From Candidatus Zixiibacteriota bacterium (GTDB taxonomy: Bacteria; RBG-13-66-14; B26-G2; WVWN01), in assembly GCA_030613505.1 (NCBI GenBank), contig JAUWLW010000074.1:1-8850 (forward strand): DNA of 8,850 nt, read 5' to 3'. Shown one piece after another: positions 1 through 8,850 of this stretch. Position 1 is the stretch's first letter, and each line of letters begins with the position of its first letter. Position numbers and translations under genes: made by a program. The notes under the pieces were generated by a model, which was not told the DNA's origin, made no database searches, and was given only the letters and a program-made list of their open reading frames with translations.

Positions 1-1
1 C

Positions 2-880
2 GGCGCCGGTTACTTTTACGCCGGCCAGTGGGGGGCGCCGGGGGACTGGGGCGAAGCGGGCAAATTCGCGTATGCCTCGCGCGTCGCCGTAAGCCGCGAC
101 GGCGACGTTTACGTCTGCGACCGGTGGGGCATCCCGCTGCAAAGTTTTACCGCCGACGGCGGCTTGCGATGGGCGCGGGATAATTATAGTCCCGAAATCG
201 ATCCCCTTCGATTCCCCCATCCCCACGGTATCGCCGCGGCCCCCGACGGGAGCGTCGTCGTTACCGACTCTCTTAGCGGCGTCGCGGCGCGGTTTTCCGG
301 GGCCGGTGAGTTATTGCAGCGTTGGCGCGCGCCCGCCGGCGAGGGTCAGCCGGGGGGCTGGACCGGCGCGGCCGTCGCGCCCGACGGGACCGTTTATATC
401 TGCGACGAGCGAACCGACGAGGTTCTGCGCTTCGCCGCCGACGGGACCCTCGAGGCGCGCTGGGGGAAGAAAGGTAGGGCCCCGGGCCGGTTCAAATCCC
501 CGGGCGACGTAGCCGTTGCGGCTAACGGTACTGTGTACGTGGCCGACACGTTGAATTGCCGCATCCAGTATTTCACGCCCACGGGCGATTTTATAGGTCA
601 ATGGGGCGAGGACGGCGACGGCCCTGGTCAATTCGACTGCCCGGAGGGCTTAGGCGTCGCGCCGGACGGGGCCGTCTTCGTCGCGGACCGCTACAACCAC
701 CGCGTCCAATACTTCGCCGCCGACGGGGCCTACCTCGGCGAGTGGGGCTCGGCCGGGATGGGCTGGGGCGAGTTCAACGAGCCGACGGACGTTGCGGTCG
801 CCGCGGACGGGGCCGTCTACGTCGTCGACGCCGCGAACCACCGCATTCAATACTTCCGCCCGGGTACGGCCGAGGAGTAG
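2..880 (+). CDS. NHL-repeat six-blade beta-propeller protein, 5'-partial
   Basis: The frame is open from base 2 to the TAG at 878-880 (292 residues), so the N-terminus lies outside the window. An internal TTG at 164 is not a credible start because NHL sequence continues upstream of it. Six repeats of about 47 residues can be seen, each with a W-G or R-W turn, a G-x-F or related segment, V-A-x-D/N-G-x-V-Y-V-x-D and N-x-R-[IV]-Q-Y-F. The last three are near-canonical; the second and third are diverged. Six NHL repeats usually close one six-bladed propeller that binds protein, RNA or polysaccharide; no catalytic residues are evident. Unlike the NHL protein at 4554-5255, it ends P-G-T-A-E-E and lacks the SLGR-type C-terminal tag. 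Its stop codon lies at the edge of a palindromic repeat. It converges with the gene at 1013-1819. The NHL assignment is firm; the role is unknown. Confidence 0.9.
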   Translation, partial: GAGYFYAGQWGAPGDWGEAGKFAYASRVAVSRDGDVYVCDRWGIPLQSFTADGGLRWARDNYSPEIDPLRFPHPHGIAAAPDGSVVVTDSLSGVAARFSGAGELLQRWRAPAGEGQPGGWTGAAVAPDGTVYICDERTDEVLRFAADGTLEARWGKKGRAPGRFKSPGDVAVAANGTVYVADTLNCRIQYFTPTGDFIGQWGEDGDGPGQFDCPEGLGVAPDGAVFVADRYNHRVQYFAADGAYLGEWGSAGMGWGEFNEPTDVAVAADGAVYVVDAANHRIQYFRPGTAEE

Positions 881-925
881 GGGCGCAAGGCCTTGCGCCC
901 CTGCGGCGGCCAGGTACGCGCCTCG
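880..925 (+). repeat. REP-like palindromic element, copy 1
   Basis: A perfect 22-nt palindrome at 880-901 has arms GGGGCGCAAGG and CCTTGCGCCCC. It is followed by a GC-rich tail (GCGGCGGCC, then GGT, then CGCGCC) that recurs after the copies at 2803 and 3735. Its first G is the last base of the preceding stop codon. From its end to the terminator at 980 I see only purine-rich sequence with a short direct repeat (GGATAAGT/GGATAAGA) near 929-945. Confidence 0.75.
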
Positions 926-979
926 AGCTGGATAAGTGGATAAGAGAGAGGCGGCGGGGGGTGGGGAGCGGTTACCAAC

Positions 980-1008
980 GATAAAAACGCCGGCCTCGGG
1001 CCGGCGTT
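980..1008 (-). terminator. Rho-independent terminator of the 1013-2670 operon
   Basis: A perfect 10-bp stem (986-995 with 999-1008) with a 3-nt loop lies just past the stop of the minus-strand gene. Read on the minus strand, the stem runs into a T-rich tract ending TTTTATC. Placement and T-tract fit an intrinsic terminator. Confidence 0.85.
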
Positions 1009-1012
1009 CGTC

Positions 1013-1819
1013 TTATTGGTAGAGCGCTTTTATTCGCCCCAGGCTGGCCGGGACGACGCCGGTGTTCGGCTCGTGGGCGATAATTTGGTATACCGTCCCG
1101 CGTAGCGGAGACGCCCCTATGTCGTCGAGGGCCCACAGGTACGTACCATCCCAGGAAAGGCCGCCGAGGCCGCGGGTGCATACTTCTATCGAAAACGAAT
1201 AACGTATCGAGCCCGAGCCGGGGTCGAGGGCGTATATTCGTGGCGGCGGGTTCCTCGTACCGGCGAAAATAAAAGGCCCGCCGGCGGTGTCGCCGTCGTA
1301 GGCCACGCCGCCGACGCCGTAGGAAGTCCGTATCGACCTGACTACGCTCCCGGTTGTCGTGAGGTTCCACAAGCGCCACGCGTGGAGATCGCCGAGCCAT
1401 AACGGCGCCGCGGCGTTATCGTTATCGAAGTCCAACGCCATAAGATAAGTAGCGCCCGGCGGCAAGGCGAAACTTGCCACGTTGGACCCGGAAGAGGATT
1501 CCCGGCAATATATCCCTTTGTAGCTGCACGCGAAGTAGAGGTACTTGGTACTGTTTTGGAACCCGAGAGCGTCGCCGGTGGGCCCGGAGAAACCTACGAC
1601 GTCCAGGATCGAGCCCGTAGAGGCGATACGTTGTGTAAAGAACTTCTCGTACCCTAGCCAGATATACCCGTCGCCGTACCCGATCGCGTACGGGGAATAC
1701 GTTACGGGGCCCTGGTATTTCCCGTCCCACGAGTTTACTACGCTCCCGAGGTAGGAGGTAGCGTCAGCCGTCCCCCACGCCGTGGCGACGAATGTGGCGA
1801 TCACTAACGTTTTCTTCAT
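1013..1819 (-). CDS. Exported propeller-like protein with C-terminal SLGR tag (paralogue 1)
   Basis: The start is ATG at 1819 (268 residues). It has a GGAGGGG ribosome site a few bases upstream and opens with a signal peptide (M-K-K, hydrophobic core at about 4-16, cleavage near A-D-A at 20). A longer in-frame extension to 1981 would add an arginine-rich stretch and overlap the upstream gene, so I reject it. The mature protein begins T-S-Y-L-G-S-V-V-N-S-W, like its neighbour. It carries repeated G-S-[VI]-[VL] and A-[YF]-D-G / W-D-G-T-Y-L-W-x-x-D units about 45 residues apart, the look of a beta-propeller. The C-terminus is V-V-P-A-S-L-G-R-I-K-A-L-Y-Q. It is the second gene of a two-gene operon (53-bp gap) and is followed by a terminator. 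No enzyme motif is visible. The role is unknown: secreted or surface propeller, possibly for adhesion or binding. Confidence 0.85.
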   Translation of the reverse strand: MKKTLVIATFVATAWGTADATSYLGSVVNSWDGKYQGPVTYSPYAIGYGDGYIWLGYEKFFTQRIASTGSILDVVGFSGPTGDALGFQNSTKYLYFACSYKGIYCRESSSGSNVASFALPPGATYLMALDFDNDNAAAPLWLGDLHAWRLWNLTTTGSVVRSIRTSYGVGGVAYDGDTAGGPFIFAGTRNPPPRIYALDPGSGSIRYSFSIEVCTRGLGGLSWDGTYLWALDDIGASPLRGTVYQIIAHEPNTGVVPASLGRIKALYQ

Positions 1820-1872
1820 GGCTCCCCTCCGCGAAGGCCGGCCGGGCCGGCATTCCCGCGTGCTGGGCGAAC

Positions 1873-2670
1873 TTACCGGAAAAGCGCGCGTATCCTGCCG
1901 ACGCTCGCCGGCGCGATTTGTACGTTCGGCTCGTGGGCGACGAATTGTACCAGGTAATGGTTTAGAGAATCGATCGTCCACAAGTATTCGCCGTCCCAGG
2001 TCAAGCCCTGGAGGCGGTTCCCTTTAACCGGAGCCGTAAACGTATAATGAATCGACCCGTTCGCCGGGTTCGTAGCGTGGATACGCGCCTTATCGGTCCA
2101 AGCCCCGACGAATAAGTATGGTCCCCCCGCGGCGTCGTTGTCGTAAGCCAACCCGGATACGTTGTTAATCGGTACCCGGATCGACCTAACGATACTTCCC
2201 CTCGTCGTGAGGTTCCAGATCCGCCACGTAATCACATCCGTAACCCAAAGCGGATGCGACGGCATTACGCGGTCGTAACAAATCGCCGAAGCGTTAGGGA
2301 TCCCGCCCGGCAGCGGGAAGGACGCCACGTACGACCCCGTTTCGGGATGGAGGAGATAAACGCCCGCTTCGTAACACGCGCACCAAATACGTCCGCTACT
2401 CCGGGCGAACGTTATTTCGTACGGCTGCGGTTTCGGTAGCCCCACGACGTCGACGATAGACCCGTGGCCCGGCTCGCGCTTGTTCAGTACTCCGTCGTAA
2501 CTAACGTACATAAAACCGGAGTCGTAACAGAGGCCTAGCGGCATCTTTCCCCCGCTGGGGTAACTGTACACCGCGTACCACGAATTCACTACGCTCCCCA
2601 GGTGCGACGTAGCAAAAGCCCCGGCCGCCCAGCAGGCGACGAGGGCCACGGTCGCTTTAGTTTTCATCAT
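1873..2670 (-). CDS. Exported propeller-like protein with C-terminal SLGR tag (paralogue 2)
   Basis: This is a 265-residue protein; ATG at 2670 and ATG at 2667 are adjacent options behind a GGGGGTAAGGG purine stretch. A signal peptide fills residues 1-20 (K-T-K, then a hydrophobic core, A-F-A). The mature part starts T-S-H-L-G-S-V-V-N-S-W, matching the downstream paralogue. The two align along their length: I-W-N-L-T-T-R-G-S-I-V-R-S-I-R here against L-W-N-L-T-T-T-G-S-V-V-R-S-I-R, then A-Y-D-x-D-x-A-G-G-P, and G-L-T-W-D-G-E-Y-L-W near 222. The C-terminus is I-A-P-A-S-V-G-R-I-R-A-L-F-R. It is first in the operon, behind a consensus promoter at 2725-2753. The pair arose by tandem duplication and has diverged widely. 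No catalytic site is recognised; the propeller fold is inferred from the repeats. Confidence 0.87.
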   Translation of the reverse strand: MMKTKATVALVACWAAGAFATSHLGSVVNSWYAVYSYPSGGKMPLGLCYDSGFMYVSYDGVLNKREPGHGSIVDVVGLPKPQPYEITFARSSGRIWCACYEAGVYLLHPETGSYVASFPLPGGIPNASAICYDRVMPSHPLWVTDVITWRIWNLTTRGSIVRSIRVPINNVSGLAYDNDAAGGPYLFVGAWTDKARIHATNPANGSIHYTFTAPVKGNRLQGLTWDGEYLWTIDSLNHYLVQFVAHEPNVQIAPASVGRIRALFR

Positions 2671-2724
2671 CCCTTACCCCCGTTCGGAATGTCCTGTTTC
2701 GTAAACCCCTCTTTTGACGCTGAC

Positions 2725-2753
2725 ATTGTAGTTATCTGAGGCCTTATTGTCAA
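2725..2753 (-). promoter_or_regulatory. Sigma70-type promoter for the 2670-1013 operon
   Basis: On the minus strand TTGACA (2753-2748) is separated by exactly 17 nt from TACAAT (2730-2725). The expected transcription start is near 2718, leaving a 5' UTR of about 48 nt before the ATG at 2670. The local AT-rich patch (about 2700-2775) stands out from the GC-rich surroundings. Confidence 0.85.
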
Positions 2754-2802
2754 TACAAATTTTATTTAGGCCGAAATTAACGGTGCCGGTTTGCCGGCCT
2801 AC

Positions 2803-2851
2803 GTAGGGGCGCAAGGCCTTGCGCCCCTACGGCGGCCGGGTGCGCGCGAGC
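2803..2851 (+). repeat. REP-like palindromic element, copy 2
   Basis: A perfect 28-nt palindrome at 2803-2830 has arms GTAGGGGCGCAAGG and CCTTGCGCCCCTAC. Its tail GGCGGCC-x-GGT-x-CGCGCGAG is shared with copies 1 and 4. It lies in the 330-bp gap between the TPR gene and the propeller operon. Confidence 0.8.
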
Positions 2852-2865
2852 CGCGCGCCGTTATA

Positions 2866-2885
2866 CCGCCCGTTTCAACGGGCGG
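2866..2885. other. Perfect 9-bp hairpin in intergenic region
   Basis: CCGCCCGTT (2866-2874) and AACGGGCGG (2877-2885) form a 9-bp stem around a 2-nt centre, followed by TTCTT on the plus strand. It may help terminate transcription from the TPR gene on the minus strand or be another intergenic repeat. It resembles the inner hairpin at 4501-4520. Confidence 0.5.
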
Positions 2886-2906
2886 TTCTTGAGCGGCGCA
2901 AGCCTA

Positions 2907-2928
2907 AAGCGCCGGCCTCAGCCGGCGA
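2907..2928 (-). terminator. Probable terminator hairpin of the TPR gene
   Basis: CGCCGGC (2910-2916) pairs with GCCGGCG (2921-2927) around CTCA. On the minus strand it is followed by CTTTAGG. It resembles the clear terminator at 980-1008 in sequence and orientation and lies downstream of the TPR gene. The T-tract is weak. Confidence 0.5.
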
Positions 2929-2946
2929 AGCCGCACGCCGAACGAA

Positions 2947-2974
2947 GTAGGGGCGCACAGCTGTGCGCCCGTAC
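2947..2974 (+). repeat. REP-like palindromic element, copy 3
   Basis: A 28-nt palindrome has arms GTAGGGGCGCACAG and CTGTGCGCCCGTAC with one mismatch. The inner arm differs from copies 1 and 2 on both sides (CACAG/CTGTG instead of CAAGG/CCTTG), so base pairing is conserved while sequence changes. A degenerate GCGGCCTCGCTCG tail follows. Confidence 0.7.
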
Positions 2975-3001
2975 TTTATCGGCGGCCTCGCTCGTACCGC
3001 T

Positions 3002-3547
3002 TCATCGCGGTTTTTTAAATGATACCAGTTCTTCGAACCAGCCGGTATGTCTATAAACGGAGAGGTCTTCGTCCGTGGCCGCGATCGAGTTATAGGACCG
3101 GTCGAGACTTATGGCCTTTCTCAAATTTTCCCTGCATTCTTCCTCGCGTCCCGTCTGGGCGCAGAAGCAAGCGTAATTGTAATAAGCCGTAGGTTCGTCG
3201 GGTCCAAACGTTATTCCCGACCTGTAAGCATCGTCGGCTTTGGCGGTTTCTCCCAATCTATTTAAAATGACCCCTTTCGTGGTATAGGCCAGGCCGTATT
3301 TCGGATCTCTTTTGATCACGGCGTCGCATATCTCTTCGGCCTCTCGGATCCTGTTGAGGAAAATCAAACAAGTGGCTTTCGCGGTATATGGCCGCAGGAA
3401 TTCTTCGTCGGCTTCGATAGCCCGGTCGAACATCTCAAGAGCTTCTCCATAATTCCCCCTATTAAATTTCTGCCTACCACTTTCGAGGTAAGTTATCGCC
3501 CGATATTTTTTTATGTCCGGGGCTGCCTCAGTCTTCACGGTTATCAA
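3002..3547 (-). CDS. TPR-repeat protein
   Basis: The frame encodes 181 residues from a TTG at 3547. A GTG at 3538, nine bases after AAGGG, is an equally good start; an in-frame TAG upstream excludes a longer protein. There are four tetratricopeptide repeats at roughly residues 20-53, 54-87, 88-121 and 122-155, with the usual G-x-x-x-x-A / A-x-x-x-[FY]-x-x-A-I-x-x-[DG]-P pattern. A capping segment with T-D-E-D-L-x-x-Y-R and F-E-E-L-V follows, as often ends bacterial TPR proteins. There is no signal peptide, so it is probably a cytoplasmic protein-interaction scaffold. Its base composition is visibly more AT-rich than the neighbours, which hints at a different origin. It ends in TGA, which argues against general TGA reassignment in this genome. 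It is a single-gene unit with no clear functional link to its neighbours. Confidence 0.87.
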   Translation of the reverse strand: MITVKTEAAPDIKKYRAITYLESGRQKFNRGNYGEALEMFDRAIEADEEFLRPYTAKATCLIFLNRIREAEEICDAVIKRDPKYGLAYTTKGVILNRLGETAKADDAYRSGITFGPDEPTAYYNYACFCAQTGREEECRENLRKAISLDRSYNSIAATDEDLSVYRHTGWFEELVSFKKPR

Positions 3548-3686
3548 CCCTTGTAAAGTTCGCCGGAGGTAGGGTTTGAACTATCACGAGCGCGCGGCTC
3601 GAGCTGCCGGCCCCGAGTTGTCGACTTCGGATTCGATTGGGACCTTACGCGCGAGCAACTAATGATACCATATCTATTCTGTAATA

Positions 3687-3695
3687 ATTATAGCA
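3687..3695 (-). promoter_or_regulatory. Possible extended -10 promoter for the TPR gene
   Basis: On the minus strand TGCTATAAT (3695-3687) is a perfect extended -10 element inside an AT-rich patch. No good -35 is present at the expected distance. The 5' UTR would be about 135 nt. Apart from this patch and the palindrome at 3735, I see nothing else in 3548-3804. Confidence 0.45.
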
Positions 3696-3734
3696 CATTA
3701 CGCCGCGACGCGCCGCTCGCCGCCGGCCGCGGGA

Positions 3735-3782
3735 GTAGGGGCGTAAGGCATTACGCCCCTGCAGCGGCCTGGTCCGCGCGAG
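3735..3782 (+). repeat. REP-like palindromic element, copy 4
   Basis: GTAGGGGCGTAA and TTACGCCCCTGC flank GGCA, giving a 9-bp core stem (3738-3746 with 3751-3759). The tail GCGGCCTGGTCCGCGCGAG matches copies 1 and 2. The arm pair GCGTAA/TTACGC replaces GCGCAA/TTGCGC on both sides, a compensatory change. It sits about 25 bp upstream of the promoter of the + operon. Confidence 0.78.
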
Positions 3783-3804
3783 AAGAGGGGCGGCCCGTTT
3801 CCCC

Positions 3805-3833
3805 TTGACGCCGCCGCGGGTTCGTAACATAAT
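3805..3833 (+). promoter_or_regulatory. Sigma70-type promoter of the 3862-5770 operon
   Basis: TTGACG (3805-3810), a 17-nt spacer and CATAAT (3828-3833) sit 28 nt before the ATG at 3862. Predicted transcription starts near 3840. The downstream TGCCGGGAGG region supplies the ribosome site. Confidence 0.8.
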
Positions 3834-3861
3834 GGGGCGGCAAACTGCCGGGAGGTGCGAT

Positions 3862-4488
3862 ATGAGAATCGGCATTATTTTGGTACTCGCGCTGGTCGCC
3901 GCAAGCGCGGCGCAGGCCGCCACGGCCATAGTCGGCGCCAAGGGTAGTCCGCAGAAGGGGCCCTGGTGCGGGACGTGAGGTAACGAGTTCCGGTGCCAGG
4001 TCCTGGTGCTGGCCAGCGAGATGAAGTTCGCCGGCGACGTAACGCGGGTGGAGTGGAACGCCTCCGCCGCGGTGACGGGCGCCGGCTTCGGCGACGTCGA
4101 GATAACGCTGTGCGAGACGTCGCTGACGCAACTTACGACCTCTTTCCGCGGCAACTACGGCGGCAACACCCCCGCTCTCATCTACAGCAACAGCTGGCTC
4201 GTCGTGACGACCACCGGCGACCAGTGGTTCGGCTTCGACTGCGCCAAACCCTTCGCCTACGGCGGCGTTAAGAATCTCGTCGTCGAGATGCGGTGGCGGC
4301 GCGACAACGAAAAGACCGTCACCTCCTGGCACTTCGACACGAAGCCCGCCTTCCGGTTGAACGCCGTCGGGACGTACGGCGCGGAGCAGGGGAAGCTGGG
4401 GACGTGGTGCTCGCGGCACCGGTTCACTTACACCGGCGTGGGCGTCGCGCCCACGTCGCTGGGCCGCGTGAGGGCGTTGTTCCGTTAG
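3862..4488 (+). CDS. Exported beta-domain protein with in-frame TGA; candidate selenoprotein or nonsense-broken gene
   Basis: ATG at 3862 follows a strong GGGAGG site (3849-3854) and starts a clear signal peptide (residues 1-20, ending A-Q-A-A). The frame then meets TGA at codon 39 (3976-3978) and stays open in the same frame to TAG at 4486-4488, for 208 residues if TGA is decoded. The downstream part cannot stand alone: the next GTG (4006) lies inside the conserved domain and has no signal peptide. The domain (about 42-190) carries L-V-L-A-S-E-M, N-Y-G-G-N-T-P, P-F-A-Y-G-G-V-K-N-L-V-V-E-M-R-W. I recognise this pattern from secreted beta-sandwich modules of uncultured bacteria. The tail is V-A-P-T-S-L-G-R-V-R-A-L-F-R. 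The stop lies in W-C-G-T-[TGA]-G-N-E-F-R-C and a hairpin follows it. Selenocysteine, a recent nonsense mutation or a sequencing error all remain possible. Confidence 0.7.
3990..4012 (+). promoter_or_regulatory. SECIS-like hairpin downstream of in-frame TGA
   Basis: CCGGTGCCA (3990-3998) pairs with TGGTGCTGG (4004-4012) through nine pairs, three of them G-U, around the loop GGTCC. A tenth pair, 3999 with 4003, would leave loop GTC. The first loop G is 21 nt past the TGA. Bacterial SECIS elements are hairpins just after UGA with a G at the start of the loop. As I recall, E. coli fdhF has GGUC in its loop at 18 nt from UGA. No bulged U like that of fdhF is visible. Function is inferred. Confidence 0.4.
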
Positions 4489-4535
4489 ACAAGGGGCAAG
4501 CCGGCGGTTAAAACCGCCGGTTAACGGCCCCTTGT
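4489..4535 (+). repeat. Nested double hairpin between operon genes
   Basis: Outer arms ACAAGGGGC (4489-4497) and GCCCCTTGT (4527-4535) are perfect complements. Inside lies a second perfect stem, CCGGCGGTT (4501-4509) with AACCGCCGG (4512-4520). It starts directly after the stop codon and ends before the ribosome site of the next gene. No T-tract follows, so it is more likely a transcript-stabilising or repeat element than a terminator. Confidence 0.75.
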
Positions 4536-4553
4536 CCGAGGAGGCAAAGGGAG

Positions 4554-5255
4554 ATGAAGAAGCTCGCCATAACTACGGCCGCGGCGCTCGGTGCGCTGGC
4601 GGCTTTTTGCGCTTGGGGCGGCTGGGTGTACGAGGGCCAGTGGGGCTCGCGCGGCTCCGGCAACGGCCAGTTCGACGACCCCGGCGGCGTCGAAGTAGCC
4701 CCCAACGGCAACGTCTACGTCGGCGACCAGTACAACCACCGGATCCAATACTTCACCCCGACCGGCTCCTTCCTCGGCAAGTGGGGCTCGTTCGGTTCGG
4801 GCAACGGCCAATTCGACGGACCAGCCGGCGTAGCGGTTGCCTTCACCGGCAACGTCTACGTAACCGAGGACGGCGCCTATTACGAAAACTACCGCGTCCA
4901 ATACTTCACCTCGAGTGGTTCTTACCTCGGCAAGTGGGGCTCGAAGGGCACGGGCAACGGCCAGTTCAACGGTCCCCTGGGGGTAGCCGTAGCACCGAAC
5001 GGCAACGTCTGCGTCGCCGACCGTCAGAACCATCGCATCCAGTACTTCACGCCGACGGGGTCCTTCCTCGAGAAATGGGGCTCGTACGGCACTGGCAACG
5101 GCCAATTCTATCTTCCGTGCGCCGTCGCTTTTAACGCCGCCGGCGACCCGGTATACATATCCGACGGCGGCAACGACCGCGTCCAATACTTCAAATGGGT
5201 CACCGTCGCCGTCGTCCCCACTTCCCTAGGCCGGGTTAAGGCGTTGTTTGAATAG
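4554..5255 (+). CDS. Exported four-repeat NHL protein with C-terminal SLGR tag
   Basis: ATG at 4554 follows GAGGAGG (4538-4544) and starts a 233-residue protein with a signal peptide at residues 1-20 (M-K-K-L, then an alanine-rich core). A Cys at 19 follows Phe, so it is not a good lipobox. Four NHL repeats lie at about 27-71, 72-121, 122-168 and 169-214, each with K-W-G-S-x-G-[ST]-G-N-G-Q-F, G-V-x-V-A-x-x-G-N-V-Y-V and [HY]-R-[IV]-Q-Y-F. The second carries an insertion, D-G-A-Y-Y-E-N-Y, in the loop where the others have D-x-x-N-H. Repeats are very similar, so recent internal expansion is likely. Four repeats are few for a closed six-blade propeller; it may oligomerise or form a partial ring. 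The tail is V-V-P-T-S-L-G-R-V-K-A-L-F-E. It is the middle gene of the operon, 11 bp before the next start. The role is likely extracellular or surface binding. Confidence 0.92.
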   Translation: MKKLAITTAAALGALAAFCAWGGWVYEGQWGSRGSGNGQFDDPGGVEVAPNGNVYVGDQYNHRIQYFTPTGSFLGKWGSFGSGNGQFDGPAGVAVAFTGNVYVTEDGAYYENYRVQYFTSSGSYLGKWGSKGTGNGQFNGPLGVAVAPNGNVCVADRQNHRIQYFTPTGSFLEKWGSYGTGNGQFYLPCAVAFNAAGDPVYISDGGNDRVQYFKWVTVAVVPTSLGRVKALFE

Positions 5256-5266
5256 GAGGTATTGAT

Positions 5267-5770
5267 ATGAAAAGGGTAATGCTCGTCGCAGTTGCGGTTG
5301 CGGCGCTCGCGGCCGGCGCGGCGGCCGGGGCCACGGTAATTTTAAACGAAGATTTCGAAGCGCCCGACCCCGGTAATCGATGGGTATTCTGGCCGTTCGT
5401 GGAGTGGCACGTCCGTTCGGCCCCGGGGCGAGGATACTACATGAGCTTCAGCGGGTCCGGCGGCGGCGCGGAGTCGCGTAAATACGCGGTCGTCAAGAAG
5501 GGTGAAAAGTACAAGGTCGGCTTGGACTACCGGTACGGCGGCGACCAGGTAGAAGTAACCTGGGGCGATAAAGGGAAAGTCATCCCGTACGCCGCCGATT
5601 GGAAGCGCGAGGAGTTCGTTTTGATTATAGGGGCGGACAGAATCGCGTACCTGCGTATTGCGATTGGAAGGCACGCCCGTCCGTTCGATTTTGACAACGT
5701 CCTCGTCGTCAGATGTGATACCACCGTCTCCCCCACCTCGCTGGGTCGCGTGAAGGTGTTGTTCCGCTAA
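5267..5770 (+). CDS. Exported jelly-roll-like protein with C-terminal SLGR tag
   Basis: A 167-residue protein starts at ATG 5267. Its AGGAGG ribosome site overlaps the stop of the previous gene, so the two are translationally close. Residues 1-22 form a signal peptide (M-K-R-V, alanine/valine core, A-G-A). The mature part starts with V-I-L-N-E-D-F-E and ends with F-D-F-D-N-V-L-V-V, with K-Y-K-V-G-L-D-Y-R-Y between. These are the typical edge strands of carbohydrate-binding-module-like jelly-roll domains. The assignment rests on pattern only and no ligand can be named. The tail is V-S-P-T-S-L-G-R-V-K-V-L-F-R. It is the last gene of the operon, followed by two hairpins and a T-rich tract. Confidence 0.85.
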   Translation: MKRVMLVAVAVAALAAGAAAGATVILNEDFEAPDPGNRWVFWPFVEWHVRSAPGRGYYMSFSGSGGGAESRKYAVVKKGEKYKVGLDYRYGGDQVEVTWGDKGKVIPYAADWKREEFVLIIGADRIAYLRIAIGRHARPFDFDNVLVVRCDTTVSPTSLGRVKVLFR

Positions 5771-5790
5771 CAAGGGGCTTAAGCCCCTTG
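5771..5790 (+). terminator. Perfect palindrome after operon stop codon
   Basis: CAAGGGGCTT and AAGCCCCTTG form a perfect 20-nt palindrome directly after the TAA at 5768-5770. The same CAAGGGGC arm follows the stop of the first operon gene at 4489, there split by an inner hairpin. No T-tract follows, so its role may be 3'-end protection rather than termination. Confidence 0.55.
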
Positions 5791-5804
5791 CCCCCGCGAC
5801 GTGC

Positions 5805-5840
5805 GTAGGGGCCGGCCTTCGGGGCGGCCCTTTATTATTT
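5805..5840 (+). terminator. GTAGGGGC hairpin with UUCG loop and T-rich tail
   Basis: GGGCCG (5809-5814) pairs with CGGCCC (5825-5830), enclosing a CC-TTCG-GG inner stem; CTTTATTATTT follows. It is the likely terminator of the 3862-5770 operon and shares the GTAGGGGC start of the REP-like repeats and of the hairpin at 8047. Confidence 0.65.
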
Positions 5841-5883
5841 CATTTCAGCTCGGCTTATTTTTTCGCGCCGGGATAATTTATGC

Positions 5884-5912
5884 TTGACTAATTTCCGGGG
5901 TTATTCAATAAT
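5884..5912 (+). promoter_or_regulatory. Promoter of leader RNA A
   Basis: TTGACT (5884-5889), a 17-nt spacer and AATAAT (5907-5912) give a good sigma70-type promoter; the start is predicted near 5919. The same arrangement with identical spacing is present at 8104-8132. Confidence 0.8.
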
Positions 5913-5918
5913 GGCTCG

Positions 5919-6074
5919 CGAGGGGGACGCACGCGTAACCGGGCGTACTAATTGAGAGAGGTACGGGCATGCCCGGGTCGGATGAAACGGGGGTTAGAAT
6001 AGGACACGGCGCCACGCGCGCCGCGCGCTGCGAAATACTGCCCAGGTTCGGCTGCATGCCGGCCTGGGGTTTTT
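5919..6074 (+). ncRNA. Structured leader RNA A, possible attenuator or riboswitch
   Basis: This transcribed segment of about 155 nt lies between a promoter and an intrinsic terminator, 46 nt before the barrel gene start. A second copy at 8139-8292 shares short blocks separated by diverged sequence. The first block is CGTAACCGGG. The second is GGGCATGCCCGGGTCGG (5965-5981), identical in both copies. The third is a stem CGGCGC/GCGCCG with differing loops, CACGC here and CTCGC in copy B, followed by TGCGAAATA. Segment AACCGGGC (5937-5944) can pair either with GCCCGG (5971-5976) or with GCCCAGGTT (6040-6048), the 5' arm of the terminator. The second choice would block termination. I recognise no known riboswitch, 6S, SRP, T-box or tmRNA signature. 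It may also be a stand-alone small RNA. Confidence 0.65.
6041..6074 (+). terminator. Rho-independent terminator of leader RNA A
   Basis: CCCAGG (6041-6046) pairs with CCTGGG (6063-6068) and CGGC (6049-6052) with GCCG (6058-6061), loop TGCAT, followed by GTTTTT. The gene start lies 46 nt beyond, so termination here would control the barrel gene. Confidence 0.85.
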
Positions 6075-6120
6075 CTATTACCTAACCCGACGTCGAAGCC
6101 TTAAACGAAAGGGGTGCGAG

Positions 6121-6756
6121 ATGAAGAAGGGAAGCATTTTAATTGCGGCGTGTACGTTAGTAACCATGGCGGCCGCGTGGGCCGCTAACATACCCAACGC
6201 GTTGGATAAGGGCGCATTGCGCTTCGGGCCGATGGCGGTGGCGGCGTTCGGACCGTCCTCATCCTTCGGCGGCGGCGCCGCCCTCTGGGCCCAATATGAC
6301 GGCTCCTGGTTCGGCGTCGACATCCGCCTCGGCGGCCACGTTTTGAAGCCGGAAGCGGGTACCACGACGTCGGTCCGATGGGAAAATGAATATCGTATGT
6401 ATTTCTTCAAAGGGAAATTCCGGCCCTATTTCGCGCCGGCCGTCGGCTTGGGTTATTTCGCTTACGACTACGTCGGCCCCGAACCCTGGTGGGACGAGCA
6501 CCGTGAGCGTTTCCTCCCCATAATAGCGGCCTACTTCGGCGTCCGCTTAAACTCTTTGTCGTCGCCTTTCTACTTCACCTTCGACGGCGGTTACAAATGG
6601 GTTGACGATGACGGCTTCGGTACCTTCCGGAACCATTACTTCTTCGCCCTAACGGAAACGATAGCGCTCCGGACGGGCTTCGAGGCCGCGTTCCGATTCG
6701 AAGAAGCTCAATTCGGCTACGGCTTAGTAGACGTCGGCCCGTCGTTCAGTTTTTAA
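6121..6756 (+). CDS. Outer-membrane beta-barrel protein, exported
   Basis: ATG at 6121 follows AAAGGGG (6108-6114) by six bases and gives a 211-residue protein. The signal peptide covers about 1-22 (M-K-K-G-S, hydrophobic core, A-W-A-A). The mature chain alternates aromatic and small or polar residues in many short strands, for example A-A-L-W-A-Q-Y-D-G-S-W-F-G-V-D-I-R-L, F-R-P-Y-F-A-P-A-V-G-L-G-Y and F-Y-F-T-F-D-G-G-Y-K-W. It ends G-P-S-F-S-F, with the terminal Phe typical of substrates of the BAM insertion machinery. This supports a diderm envelope. An 8-stranded barrel is plausible from length. It lacks the SLGR tag of the other exported proteins, consistent with a different route. Leader RNA A lies just upstream and the zinc-ribbon gene follows. 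No homologue of this barrel is present beside the second leader copy. Confidence 0.83.
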   Translation: MKKGSILIAACTLVTMAAAWAANIPNALDKGALRFGPMAVAAFGPSSSFGGGAALWAQYDGSWFGVDIRLGGHVLKPEAGTTTSVRWENEYRMYFFKGKFRPYFAPAVGLGYFAYDYVGPEPWWDEHRERFLPIIAAYFGVRLNSLSSPFYFTFDGGYKWVDDDGFGTFRNHYFFALTETIALRTGFEAAFRFEEAQFGYGLVDVGPSFSF

Positions 6757-6915
6757 AGGGGGAGGAATGGGAAAAACGAGGGCTTCCGTTTTCATCCTCG
6801 CAAACGCTTCGGCCTCGTAGGCGGAAGGGTTCATGTGCTCGTCCGTGCCGGGTGCCGAACGACGGCGCGTTTCGCCGAATAAGGCGCCGCGCACAATTCA
6901 GTGCCGGAGGTAGCT
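6757..6915 (+). other. Intergenic gap with possible 17-codon ORF
   Basis: ATG at 6767 opens a 17-codon frame ending at TAG 6818-6820, reading M-G-K-T-R-A-S-V-F-I-L-A-N-A-S-A-S. It resembles the start of a signal peptide cut short. The GGGGGAGG stretch is too close to the ATG for good initiation, so a decayed gene start is as likely as a real peptide. GGCGC/GCGCC arms around 6865-6889 may form a hairpin. No promoter is evident, so the next gene is probably cotranscribed with the barrel gene. Confidence 0.3.
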
Positions 6916-7545
6916 ATGAGAACCATATCGGAGAATAAAACCGCCGCAGTCGTGGTCGTAGCGGCCGCGTTGCTCTGGGCGAATTTCGCCTGGGGGACCC
7001 CGGCCGAGGCGCCGGTGGCTGAGGGCGAGGCCGAAATAGCGTCCGTCGAAGACCCCTGGGCGGGCGTTAGGATAAGCGACGCCTACGACGACCTCAGGTG
7101 CCCGTATTGTTGGGGGTATAACGAATTGACGGCGGCGCGGTGCCCCTACTGCGGTCACGAATTCGCGCAGCCGTCGGGCGAGTATACGTATCCGCCGTGG
7201 GTTTTCGTACCCGGCAAGGGGTACTACCGCGAGGGCACGCTGTTGGAGCCGGGAAAGACGAGGAAAGGCTACTCGATCGCGGGGATAGTCCTTACGGCGT
7301 CCGGTCTTGCCGCGGGTGCGCTCGCGGGGGATTACGATAGTGATATTATAGGGGGTATAGCCTTAGGCGCGCTAAGCGTCGGCGTCGGTTTAATCGTATA
7401 CGGCCTCGTTGCCCGTACCGAACCCGTGTACGCTTTCGCGACCGGCGAGTGCTTCGAGCCGTACGAGCGGCCGGCTTTTGCTCTCAGGTCGGCCGATTCT
7501 GAGGGCGCAGCGTTAAAGGTCGAGGTTACGGTGTTGGGTTTTTAA
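6916..7545 (+). CDS. Exported membrane protein with double-CxxC zinc ribbon (copy 1)
   Basis: ATG at 6916 follows GGAGG (6906-6910) at five bases; a GTG at 6901 in the same frame lies upstream of that site and is rejected. The protein has 209 residues. An N-terminal hydrophobic stretch at about 10-26 ends F-A-W-G and looks like a signal peptide or anchor. C-P-Y-C (62-65) and C-P-Y-C (76-79) are spaced by ten residues and form a zinc-ribbon-like or rubredoxin-like knuckle. Then comes an aromatic segment with Y-P-P-W-V-F-V-P-G-K-G-Y-Y. Two membrane segments lie at about 119-138 and 144-166. A C-terminal region of about 40 residues ends V-T-V-L-G-F. If the N-terminus is exported, the metal site is outside the cytoplasm, which is unusual. 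A second copy lies at 8317-8850. I recognise no named family. The role is unknown; metal or redox sensing is a guess. Confidence 0.85.
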   Translation: MRTISENKTAAVVVVAAALLWANFAWGTPAEAPVAEGEAEIASVEDPWAGVRISDAYDDLRCPYCWGYNELTAARCPYCGHEFAQPSGEYTYPPWVFVPGKGYYREGTLLEPGKTRKGYSIAGIVLTASGLAAGALAGDYDSDIIGGIALGALSVGVGLIVYGLVARTEPVYAFATGECFEPYERPAFALRSADSEGAALKVEVTVLGF

Positions 7546-7546
7546 T

Positions 7547-7578
7547 TACGGGGACCGGCGAGTATTCGCGGCCCCGTA
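7547..7578 (+). terminator. Long hairpin after zinc-ribbon gene
   Basis: TACGGGG (7547-7553) and CCCCGTA (7572-7578) form a 7-bp outer stem. CC plus GCGA pair inside with TCGC plus GG around loop GTAT, giving 13 pairs with two single-base bulges. It starts right after the TAA. No T-tract follows, so termination is uncertain. Confidence 0.5.
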
Positions 7579-7692
7579 CGCGAAACGGGCACGGGAGAGC
7601 GGACCGCGAGCGGTGGAAAATAAGGACGCCCTTACGCGGTTCGCCGGATTGGCGGCAAATAGAGTACGGCCTTAAGGCCCGGGAGGTCTGCG

Positions 7693-8025
7693 ATGTCGGC
7701 TAAGTTCGTGCTGCGTACGTTCCGGAACGTAGTATTTCGGGACCGTCCTTATTTCGCCCATCTTACGGTCACGCACCGGGGCGACGGCCGTCGCCGGCTC
7801 CGCCGCGGCCCCCGCCGCGGCCGCGGCGCGCGGCCCGACGAGCTCGACACCGAGGGGATGAAGCAGGTCGTCGACGTTCTCGACCGCATGGGCGTAGCCG
7901 TTTCCTCGACGGGCGCGCGGGTCTACGTCGCCGATTCCCTGAACAACCGTGTCCAATACTTCAAAGATACGGAATATGCGGTAACCCCGACCTCCCTCGG
8001 CCGCGTGAAGGCGCTGTTTAAATAG
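7693..8025 (+). CDS. Small chimeric ORF: basic N-terminus fused to one NHL blade and SLGR tag
   Basis: ATG at 7693 sits six bases after GGGAGG (7681-7686), a strong ribosome site, and encodes 110 residues. Residues 67-90 are the end of an NHL repeat (G-V-A-V-S-S-T-G-A-R-V-Y-V-A-D, N-N-R-V-Q-Y-F). They are followed directly by the tail V-T-P-T-S-L-G-R-V-K-A-L-F-K. Residues 1-66 have no NHL pattern: an arginine-rich stretch (31-48), then D-E-L-D-T-E-G-M-K-Q-V-V-D-V-L-D-R-M. There is no signal peptide, unlike the other intact tagged proteins. The simplest reading is a remnant of a longer NHL gene whose 5' part was deleted and replaced, so it is probably a decaying gene. The ribosome site means it may still be translated. 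The hairpin and leader cassette copy B follow it. Confidence 0.55.
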   Translation: MSAKFVLRTFRNVVFRDRPYFAHLTVTHRGDGRRRLRRGPRRGRGARPDELDTEGMKQVVDVLDRMGVAVSSTGARVYVADSLNNRVQYFKDTEYAVTPTSLGRVKALFK

Positions 8026-8046
8026 GTACCCCGCCAAGCCGGAATC

Positions 8047-8078
8047 GTAGGGGCCGACCTTTAGGTCGGCCCGGTTTA
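8047..8078 (+). terminator. GTAGGGGC hairpin before leader B
   Basis: GGGCCGACCT (8051-8060) and AGGTCGGCCC (8063-8072) form a perfect 10-bp arm pair, followed by GGTTTATC. It corresponds in position and start sequence to 5805-5840, with changed but still complementary arms. It probably ends transcription from the ORF at 7693-8025. Confidence 0.65.
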
Positions 8079-8103
8079 TCCCCCGAGCCGAATTAATTTC
8101 TAC

Positions 8104-8132
8104 TTGACTACTTTAGTCTGGTATTCTATAAT
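8104..8132 (+). promoter_or_regulatory. Promoter of leader RNA B
   Basis: TTGACT (8104-8109), a 17-nt spacer and a perfect TATAAT (8127-8132) predict a start near 8139. This is the strongest-looking promoter in the window on the plus strand. Confidence 0.87.
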
Positions 8133-8138
8133 TGCTCG

Positions 8139-8292
8139 CAAGGAAGCGCGTACACGTAACCGGGTGGACTTACGAAGGGGTTGAAGGGCATGCCCGGGTC
8201 GGGAGAGATAAGTTTAATACAGTACGGCGCCTCGCGCGCCGCGCGTTGCGAAATAATACCCGGGTTCGGCTAATAGCCGGCCTGGGGTTTTT
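8139..8292 (+). ncRNA. Structured leader RNA B, paralogue of leader A
   Basis: It has the same order of blocks as leader A: CGTAACCGGG, the identical GGGCATGCCCGGGTCGG block (8187-8203), the stem CGGCGC-CTCGC-GCGCCG, GCGAAATA and a terminator. AACCGGGT (8158-8165) can pair with GCCCGG (8192-8197) or with ACCCGGGTT (8258-8266), the 5' arm of the terminator. Where copy A has a C-G pair at the end of the latter helix (5944-6040), copy B has U-A (8165-8258), a compensatory change. The segments between blocks, for example 8205-8222, are unrelated to copy A in sequence. It lies 24 nt upstream of the second zinc-ribbon coding region. A reading frame through it (8132-8320) is not a credible gene. Confidence 0.65.
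8259..8292 (+). terminator. Rho-independent terminator of leader RNA B
   Basis: CCCGGG (8259-8264) pairs with CCTGGG (8281-8286) and CGGC (8267-8270) with GCCG (8276-8279), loop TAATA, then GTTTTT. Compared with copy A the loop is entirely different while the stem is kept, with A-U replaced by G-U. Confidence 0.85.
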
Positions 8293-8316
8293 GCTATCCG
8301 GAAAGGGGAACGGGAA

Positions 8317-8850
8317 ATAGCCGATTTCAAAAGAAGCACTCCCCAGGTCCCGGTGGTTTTAGCCGCATTAGTGCTGTGGGTTTCTTTCGCCTGGGGTTTG
8401 CCGGCCGACGCGCCGGCGAGCGAGGCCGAGGTGGCGCCCGAGGACCCCTGGGCCGGCGTCAAGATAAGCGACGCCTACGACGAACTCAGGTGCCCGTATT
8501 GTTGGGGGTATAACGAATTGACGGCGGCGCGGTGCCCCTACTGCGGTCACGAATTCGCGCAGCCGTCGGGCGAGTATACGTATCCGCCGTGGGTCTTCGT
8601 CCCGGGAAAAGGGTATTACCGGGAAGGCACGTTGTTGGAGCCGGGTAAATCCAGGAAAGGCTATTGGATCACGGGGCTGGTCCTTACGGCGTCCGGCCTT
8701 ACCGTGGGTGCGCTCGCCGGGTATTACGGAGGTGATATAGGAGGTGCCATAGCCGCCCTCCCGTGTTTAGCCGTGATAGCCGTCGGCGTCCCCCTGCTCA
8801 TATATGGCCTTGCTACCCGTACCGAGCCGGTGTACGCCTTTGCGAGCGGC
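8317..8850 (+). CDS. Zinc-ribbon membrane protein (copy 2), 3'-partial, no standard start codon
   Basis: The frame aligns without gaps to the copy at 6916 and stays open to the window end (178 codons). It carries the hydrophobic N-terminus ending F-A-W-G, both C-P-Y-C motifs, Y-P-P-W-V-F-V-P-G-K-G-Y-Y and the two membrane segments. At the position of the ATG of copy 1 this copy has ATA (8317-8319), preceded by AAGGGGAACGGGAA. No ATG, GTG or TTG occurs between the terminator and this point in frame. The first standard alternative is GTG at 8353, inside the hydrophobic segment, with only a weak AGGT upstream. It may start at ATA, start late with a shortened signal segment, or be silenced by loss of its start. 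Substitutions elsewhere keep the reading frame, which argues for recent or present function. It is likely controlled by leader RNA B. Confidence 0.7.
   Translation, partial: MADFKRSTPQVPVVLAALVLWVSFAWGLPADAPASEAEVAPEDPWAGVKISDAYDELRCPYCWGYNELTAARCPYCGHEFAQPSGEYTYPPWVFVPGKGYYREGTLLEPGKSRKGYWITGLVLTASGLTVGALAGYYGGDIGGAIAALPCLAVIAVGVPLLIYGLATRTEPVYAFASG

Follow-up and report, generated by a model that had tools for sequence, protein, structure and literature searches.

The 8,850-nucleotide stretch of DNA analysed here (contig JAUWLW010000074.1 of assembly GCA_030613505.1, positions 1 to 8,850 of the forward strand; hereafter the window) encodes exported proteins that end in a common peptide of about 15 residues. 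This C-terminal tag is real and is present far beyond chance, with ~190 copies in the genome to which the window belongs. Sequence comparisons and structural models support the reading that exported proteins carry it as a recognition tag, strictly C-terminal and conserved at the protein level. On balance, the tag is likely to be a minimal linear sorting signal of the type IX secretion system (T9SS) that is used beside the folded C-terminal domain (CTD) of ~80 amino acids.

Sequence, position and conservation of the tag

The genome (GTDB phylum Coatesbacteria, 2.86 Mb, 93% complete) was searched with a degenerate DNA pattern allowing up to three mismatches, which gave 174 tag sites; 191 sites were obtained when the pattern included the stop codon, and the reversed control gave 0 in both cases. 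The tag consensus is [AP]-V-x-x-[ATS]-[ST]-[LVFW]-G-x-[VI]-K-[AS]-[LM]-[FY]-[RK]-COOH, in which residue positions such as -8 or -5 are counted from the C-terminus. Gly -8 was invariant in 200/200 Coatesbacteria tags. The motif had been described as about 12 residues long in an initial annotation of the window, and this proved too short, as the length is nearer 15 with Val usual at -14.

The initial annotation had also held that the motif stands only at the C-terminus and is kept by selection on the protein rather than being a fresh DNA repeat, and both ideas were borne out. In 290 kb of this genome examined gene by gene, the core motif lay exactly one residue ahead of the stop codon in 58/58 cases, with no internal copies. 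Among 100 distinct tagged genes there were 98 different tag DNA sequences, and the commonest tag peptide, PASLGRVKALFR, was encoded in 35 genes by 33 DNA spellings, which places the conservation at the protein level. The window copies are 69-84% identical to one another in DNA, as might be seen if a DNA repeat without any protein-level role had spread into gene ends, but the synonymous diversity refutes this explanation and the lack of internal copies (0/58) also speaks against it, so that we regard it as extremely improbable. A few NHL paralogues carry a stop codon just before the tag (L097:989-4866, L106:6276-7226 and L078:2-790), and in most of them the tag DNA behind the stop has been eroded by frameshift or substitution, which argues against a DNA repeat and agrees with conservation at the protein level. 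The sole intact in-frame tag behind a stop is that of L097, where the stop is TAG. These paralogues may have lost the tag by nonsense mutation or, less likely, may be subject to regulated readthrough.

An enrichment of signal peptides with the tag, which the initial annotation had suggested testing, was also seen in the own genome. Signal peptides were predicted for 52/66 tagged open reading frames (ORFs; 79%) versus 71/205 other ORFs (35%), and only this contrast counts, because the detector was a rough, home-made heuristic that overcalls.

Fold context of the tag

Two proteins were modeled with AlphaFold (AF2): an NHL homologue (L106:818-1786) from 28 sequences and, from 11 sequences, the protein encoded at 3862-4485 of the window, read through its in-frame TGA codon. 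The first was modeled as a six-bladed propeller and the second as a beta-sandwich, with a predicted local distance difference test score (pLDDT) of ~95-98 for the domains; the beta-sandwich protein had a pLDDT of about 95 apart from the signal peptide and the tag. In both models the tag lies outside the fold, has a pLDDT below 50 and shows a weak helix over the last 8-9 residues. The tag thus stands outside two different predicted folds and is no closing strand of a fold that its carriers share. The idea of a single widespread fold with the tag as its final element draws on the many beta-propellers among the carriers: a Pfam search of 69 tagged proteins from the own genome found NHL repeats in 28, a cupredoxin domain in 1 and nothing in many. 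In view of the two models, and of tags that follow FnIII-like and cupredoxin domains, this idea is almost certainly wrong.

The weak helix, along with the alternating basic and hydrophobic residues, would suit a short amphipathic helix that serves as a peripheral membrane anchor without a protein receptor. However, the helical moment of the tag was no better than that of shuffled sequences (p 0.26-0.57), and a generic lipid anchor would not demand Gly -8, Lys/Arg -5 and a fixed spacing from the carboxyl end so strictly, which leaves this explanation improbable. As had been noted, the tag contains no membrane segment; the protein ends with no hydrophobic span after the signature.

Distribution of the tag and of a sister form

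Exact tag matches were found in two named genomes, one recorded as Candidatus Coatesbacteria and the other as Candidatus Zixiibacteriota. When the strict pattern including the stop codon was applied to 14 genomes of the window's phylum, the counts were 126-195 for the genus of the window, 60 for the next family and 9-25 for the rest of the class. Family f5 had almost none by this pattern, and 5-16 copies per genome by a looser one. With a looser pattern applied to 386 genomes, a sister form, [TS]-W-G-x-[IV]-K-[AS]-[LMI]-[FY]-R, was found at the C-terminus in many other phyla. Both forms have Gly -8, Lys -5, an aliphatic residue at -6, Ala/Ser at -4, an aromatic residue at -2 and a basic residue at the very end; Val -14 is often shared as well. 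A Coatesbacteria protein of the 3862-4485 family that ends in TTSWGRVKALYR bridges the two forms. Outside Coatesbacteria, about 15 genomes carry 18-64 tag copies each. No Pfam or NCBIfam CTERM-type model matched the tag, and nothing on it was found in the open-licence literature on short C-terminal or T9SS signals in candidate phyla.

Association with type IX secretion

The own genome encodes SprA (313 bits, cut-off 200) and a PorU-like sortase (416 bits, cut-off 420) with a PorV-family protein (131 bits, cut-off 90) encoded directly after it; there are 10 PorV-family matches and 48 T9SS CTD matches in all. SprA and canonical CTDs were present in 14/14 Coatesbacteria genomes. Outside this phylum, at least two tags were found in 20 genomes from 13 families, and every one of these (20/20) had a strong SprA match; the association gave a Fisher value of 3e-15 without correction for relatedness. 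In tag numbers, the 78 SprA-strong genomes outside Coatesbacteria contained 173 tags versus 18 in the other 294, with 4 and 8 for the reversed control.

The best single argument that the tag and the CTD do the same job is that one takes the place of the other after the same domain. In ten tagged proteins the region ahead of the tag is similar to CTD proteins. In L209, L210, L211, L217, L218 and L274, an FnIII-like domain common to both kinds of protein stops 1-15 residues short of the tag, and 4-19 residues short of the CTD in the CTD proteins; this swap concerns one domain type, with E-values that are weak to moderate (1e-13 to 1e-3). Of 298 tagged ORFs, not one had a CTD in addition to the tag, as judged with a local CTD profile. 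Tag and CTD genes also stand in common clusters in the own genome (L244, L253 and L258). A tagged FnIII-like protein occurs as a single copy in eleven or so genomes, mostly ending in TWGSIKAMFR or TWGSIKALFR, and a homologue of PorD (DUF4835) is encoded directly upstream of it in L211 and L213 and in the same neighborhood in L219. In F. johnsoniae, PorD binds to the Extended Translocon of T9SS (PMC10994853).

Several results weigh against a role in T9SS. No tag was found in 35 of the 78 SprA-strong genomes, among them those that match SprA best. SprA is therefore not enough to predict the tag, and shared ancestry may explain part of the SprA link. PorV copy number did not separate tag-rich from tag-poor genomes, and neither did PorU, which was matched in 63/63 genomes tested; no dedicated receptor was therefore found. 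Among the genes tested, there was none of the kind that the initial annotation had suggested looking for, whose presence tracks tag count. PorD accompanies the single-copy tagged gene in only 3/12 loci, and no other conserved dedicated neighbor was seen there. Moreover, the T9SS signals described so far are folded domains; the short CTDs of Prevotella still have 40-55 amino acids and three strands (PMC11969387).

The chief competitor is a separate, undescribed machine for sorting, processing or surface retention that is present in the same T9SS-bearing lineages, T9SS itself being uninvolved. A second system is possible because tag and CTD coexist; they are not mutually exclusive between genomes, with 61-134 CTDs in tag-rich genomes. 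The tag-free SprA-positive genomes, and the failure of any tested T9SS component to track tag number, also favor such a machine. It does not readily account for the replacement of the CTD by the tag after the same penultimate domain, for the lack of numerous tags outside SprA-strong genomes, or for porD adjoining some of the single-copy tagged genes, and we consider it rather unlikely, at perhaps one chance in a few. The initial annotation had proposed a recognition tag for an undescribed system of secretion, processing or surface anchoring. The recognition tag stands, while new machinery is probably too strong a claim, as the evidence points to the known T9SS with a second short signal.

Two observations on the T9SS genes themselves were made. 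The PorV family is strongly multiplied in nearly all of 80 SprA-positive genomes, with up to 26 matches per genome, and some of these matches are the C-terminal parts of ORFs of 740-990 amino acids. Directly after sprA, the own genome has two TolQ/ExbB-like and two TolR/ExbD-like genes (L174:7811-16258), which are possibly a motor for its T9SS; the other sprA loci examined did not show this arrangement.

Comparison with known C-terminal signals

The tag resembles the T9SS type A CTD (TIGR04183, Por_Secre_tail) in that both are C-terminal on Sec-exported proteins in genomes with SprA, PorU and PorV, follow the same FnIII-like domain in some proteins and, in these genomes, usually end in Lys/Arg. 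As with T9SS cargo, signal peptides for Sec are enriched among the tagged proteins, and the translocon and its partners are encoded in the genome, with SprA over and the PorU-like protein just under the cut-off. In contrast to the type A CTD, which has 70-100 amino acids in a seven-stranded, Ig-like fold, the tag has ~15 residues of a different sequence, is unstructured in the models and lies outside the fold in both, and no protein of the window matched TIGR04183 at E up to 10. The short CTDs of Prevotella intermedia are likewise a reduced T9SS signal beside long CTDs in one genome, but with their three strands and motifs B, D and E they are still recognizable as CTDs (PMC11969387), whereas the tag sits directly on the cargo domain. 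The type B CTD (TIGR04131) offers a parallel to the proposed role of the tag as a second T9SS signal class with its own carriers, although it is a folded region of 150-235 amino acids with cognate PorP/SprF genes (PMC12618676). At the same limit, E up to 10, no protein of the window matched TIGR04131, and PorP/SprF genes were not searched for. PEP-CTERM, GlyGly-CTERM, MYXO-CTERM and LPXTG are, like the tag, short C-terminal signatures on dozens of unrelated exported proteins in a many-to-one arrangement. All of these carry a transmembrane helix and a basic tail, whereas the tag is without a membrane segment and too short to hold one, so its layout is not that of PEP-CTERM.

Proposed mechanism

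In T9SS the CTD is bound inside SprA by loops of the carrier PorV, and one conserved Lys contacts the PorV backbone (PMC10994853). Different signal classes use different carriers (PMC12618676). For HBP35 of P. gingivalis, the T9SS targeting signal has been mapped to the last 22 residues, and the very end of the CTD is important (PMC11285876).

If the tag is a T9SS signal, a tagged protein would reach the periplasm through its predicted signal peptide, where the cargo would fold and leave the last ~15 residues free, as AlphaFold predicts. A carrier at the SprA translocon, which might be one of the ~10 PorV-family paralogues, would then bind the free C-terminus, and the near-invariant Lys -5 could stand in for the conserved CTD Lys that contacts PorV. 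The cargo would exit via SprA and would then be released or held at the surface. Within this scheme, results stand behind only the predicted entry into the periplasm, the predicted folding and the tag's association with T9SS genes.

There is about an even chance that the tag represents either a third T9SS signal class, a bare linear C-terminal peptide found in many phyla, on up to about 190 proteins per genome and with a dedicated carrier, or else a wholly undescribed export or anchoring machine. In the former case, T9SS cargo would be undercounted in many uncultured phyla, because annotation relies on the ~80-amino-acid CTD; a signal of ~15 residues would show the minimum that the translocon or carrier must recognize, and the tag could find use in surface display as a compact label. 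Should something other than T9SS read the tag, an entire sorting pathway serving up to about 190 proteins per genome would be undescribed.

Tagged proteins of the window

Direct reading and translation confirmed that six frames of the window end in the tag, at the stops listed in the initial annotation (Table 1). The initial annotation had called their carriers six unrelated proteins; the folds do differ, and the carriers fall into only four families, since the proteins at 1016 and 1876 are paralogues and those at 4554 and 7693 are both NHL proteins. Its count of five signal peptides among the six carriers holds. The frame that it gave as starting at 4006 has its true start at ATG 3862 and encodes an evident signal peptide ahead of the in-frame TGA, and the exception is the truncated ORF at 7693-8022, whose match to the NHL paralogues is confined to ~35 C-terminal residues. 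Homologues of the protein at 5267-5767 end in the same tag. The beta-barrel (6121) and TPR (3002) proteins lack the tag, as had been noted, and it is also absent from both zinc-ribbon proteins and from the first NHL frame (2-880).

Table 1. Tags and tagged proteins in the window.
Feature	Position	Strand	Remarks
Tag GVVPASLGRIKALYQ	1016-1060	-	End of protein 1016-1819; direct reading and translation
Tag QIAPASVGRIRALFR	1876-1920	-	End of protein 1876-2670
Tag GVAPTSLGRVRALFR	4441-4485	+	End of protein 3862-4485; pLDDT < 50, outside fold
Tag AVVPTSLGRVKALFE	5208-5252	+	End of NHL protein 4554-5252; outside the propeller in homologue L106:818-1786
Tag TVSPTSLGRVKVLFR	5723-5767	+	End of CBM-like protein 5267-5767
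Tag AVTPTSLGRVKALFK	7978-8022	+	End of ORF 7693-8022
Tagged exported protein, 268 aa, signal peptide, beta-propeller-like family	1016-1819	-	Paralogue of 1876-2670
Tagged exported protein, 265 aa, signal peptide	1876-2670	-	Paralogue of 1016-1819
Tagged exported beta-sandwich protein, 208 codons, signal peptide, in-frame TGA 3976-3978	3862-4485	+	
Tagged exported NHL-repeat protein, 233 aa, signal peptide	4554-5252	+	Pfam NHL, E 2e-23
Tagged exported CBM-like beta-sandwich protein, 167 aa, signal peptide	5267-5767	+	Weak CBM_4_9, E 0.008
Tagged, truncated ORF (NHL tail) without in-frame signal peptide	7693-8022	+	

A candidate selenoprotein family

The in-frame TGA of the protein at 3862-4485 occupies an alignment position that is also TGA, without exception, in 16 further sequences. 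The TGA-bearing homologues include L163 (family f5) and L205 (another phylum), and other TGA-bearing loci of the family are L080, L122, L074, L077, L254 and L009. The contexts of the codon include WCGT-U-G and PFSGC-U-D, and in most cases a strong hairpin lies about 11-20 nt downstream of the TGA, often around CCAGGNCCTGG. The own genome encodes a tRNA-Sec that scored 66.7 bits against a gathering score of 47. Many members of the family stand in tandem copies (L254 and L122) and bear the C-terminal tag. No NCBIfam model matched the family, and a Foldseek search with the model of 3862-4485 returned only weak matches to beta-sandwich domains. From the aligned codons, the hairpins and the tRNA-Sec, we conclude that these proteins are probably unrecorded exported, tagged selenoproteins in which TGA encodes selenocysteine.

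Other elements of the window

Two copies of a non-coding element of ~150 nt, with blocks that are 74-87% identical, are located at 5928-6074 and 8149-8292. The element has no Rfam match and ends in the terminator-like sequence GCCGGCCTGGGGTTTTT. Short intergenic palindromic repeats, GTAGGGGCGCAAGGCCTTGCGCCCC, which resemble repetitive extragenic palindromic (REP) sequences, are found at 874-921, 2800-2847, 2944-2991 and 3732-3779. The untagged zinc-ribbon proteins at 6901-7545 and 8353-8850 are paralogous exported membrane proteins that are about 90% identical over 300 nt.

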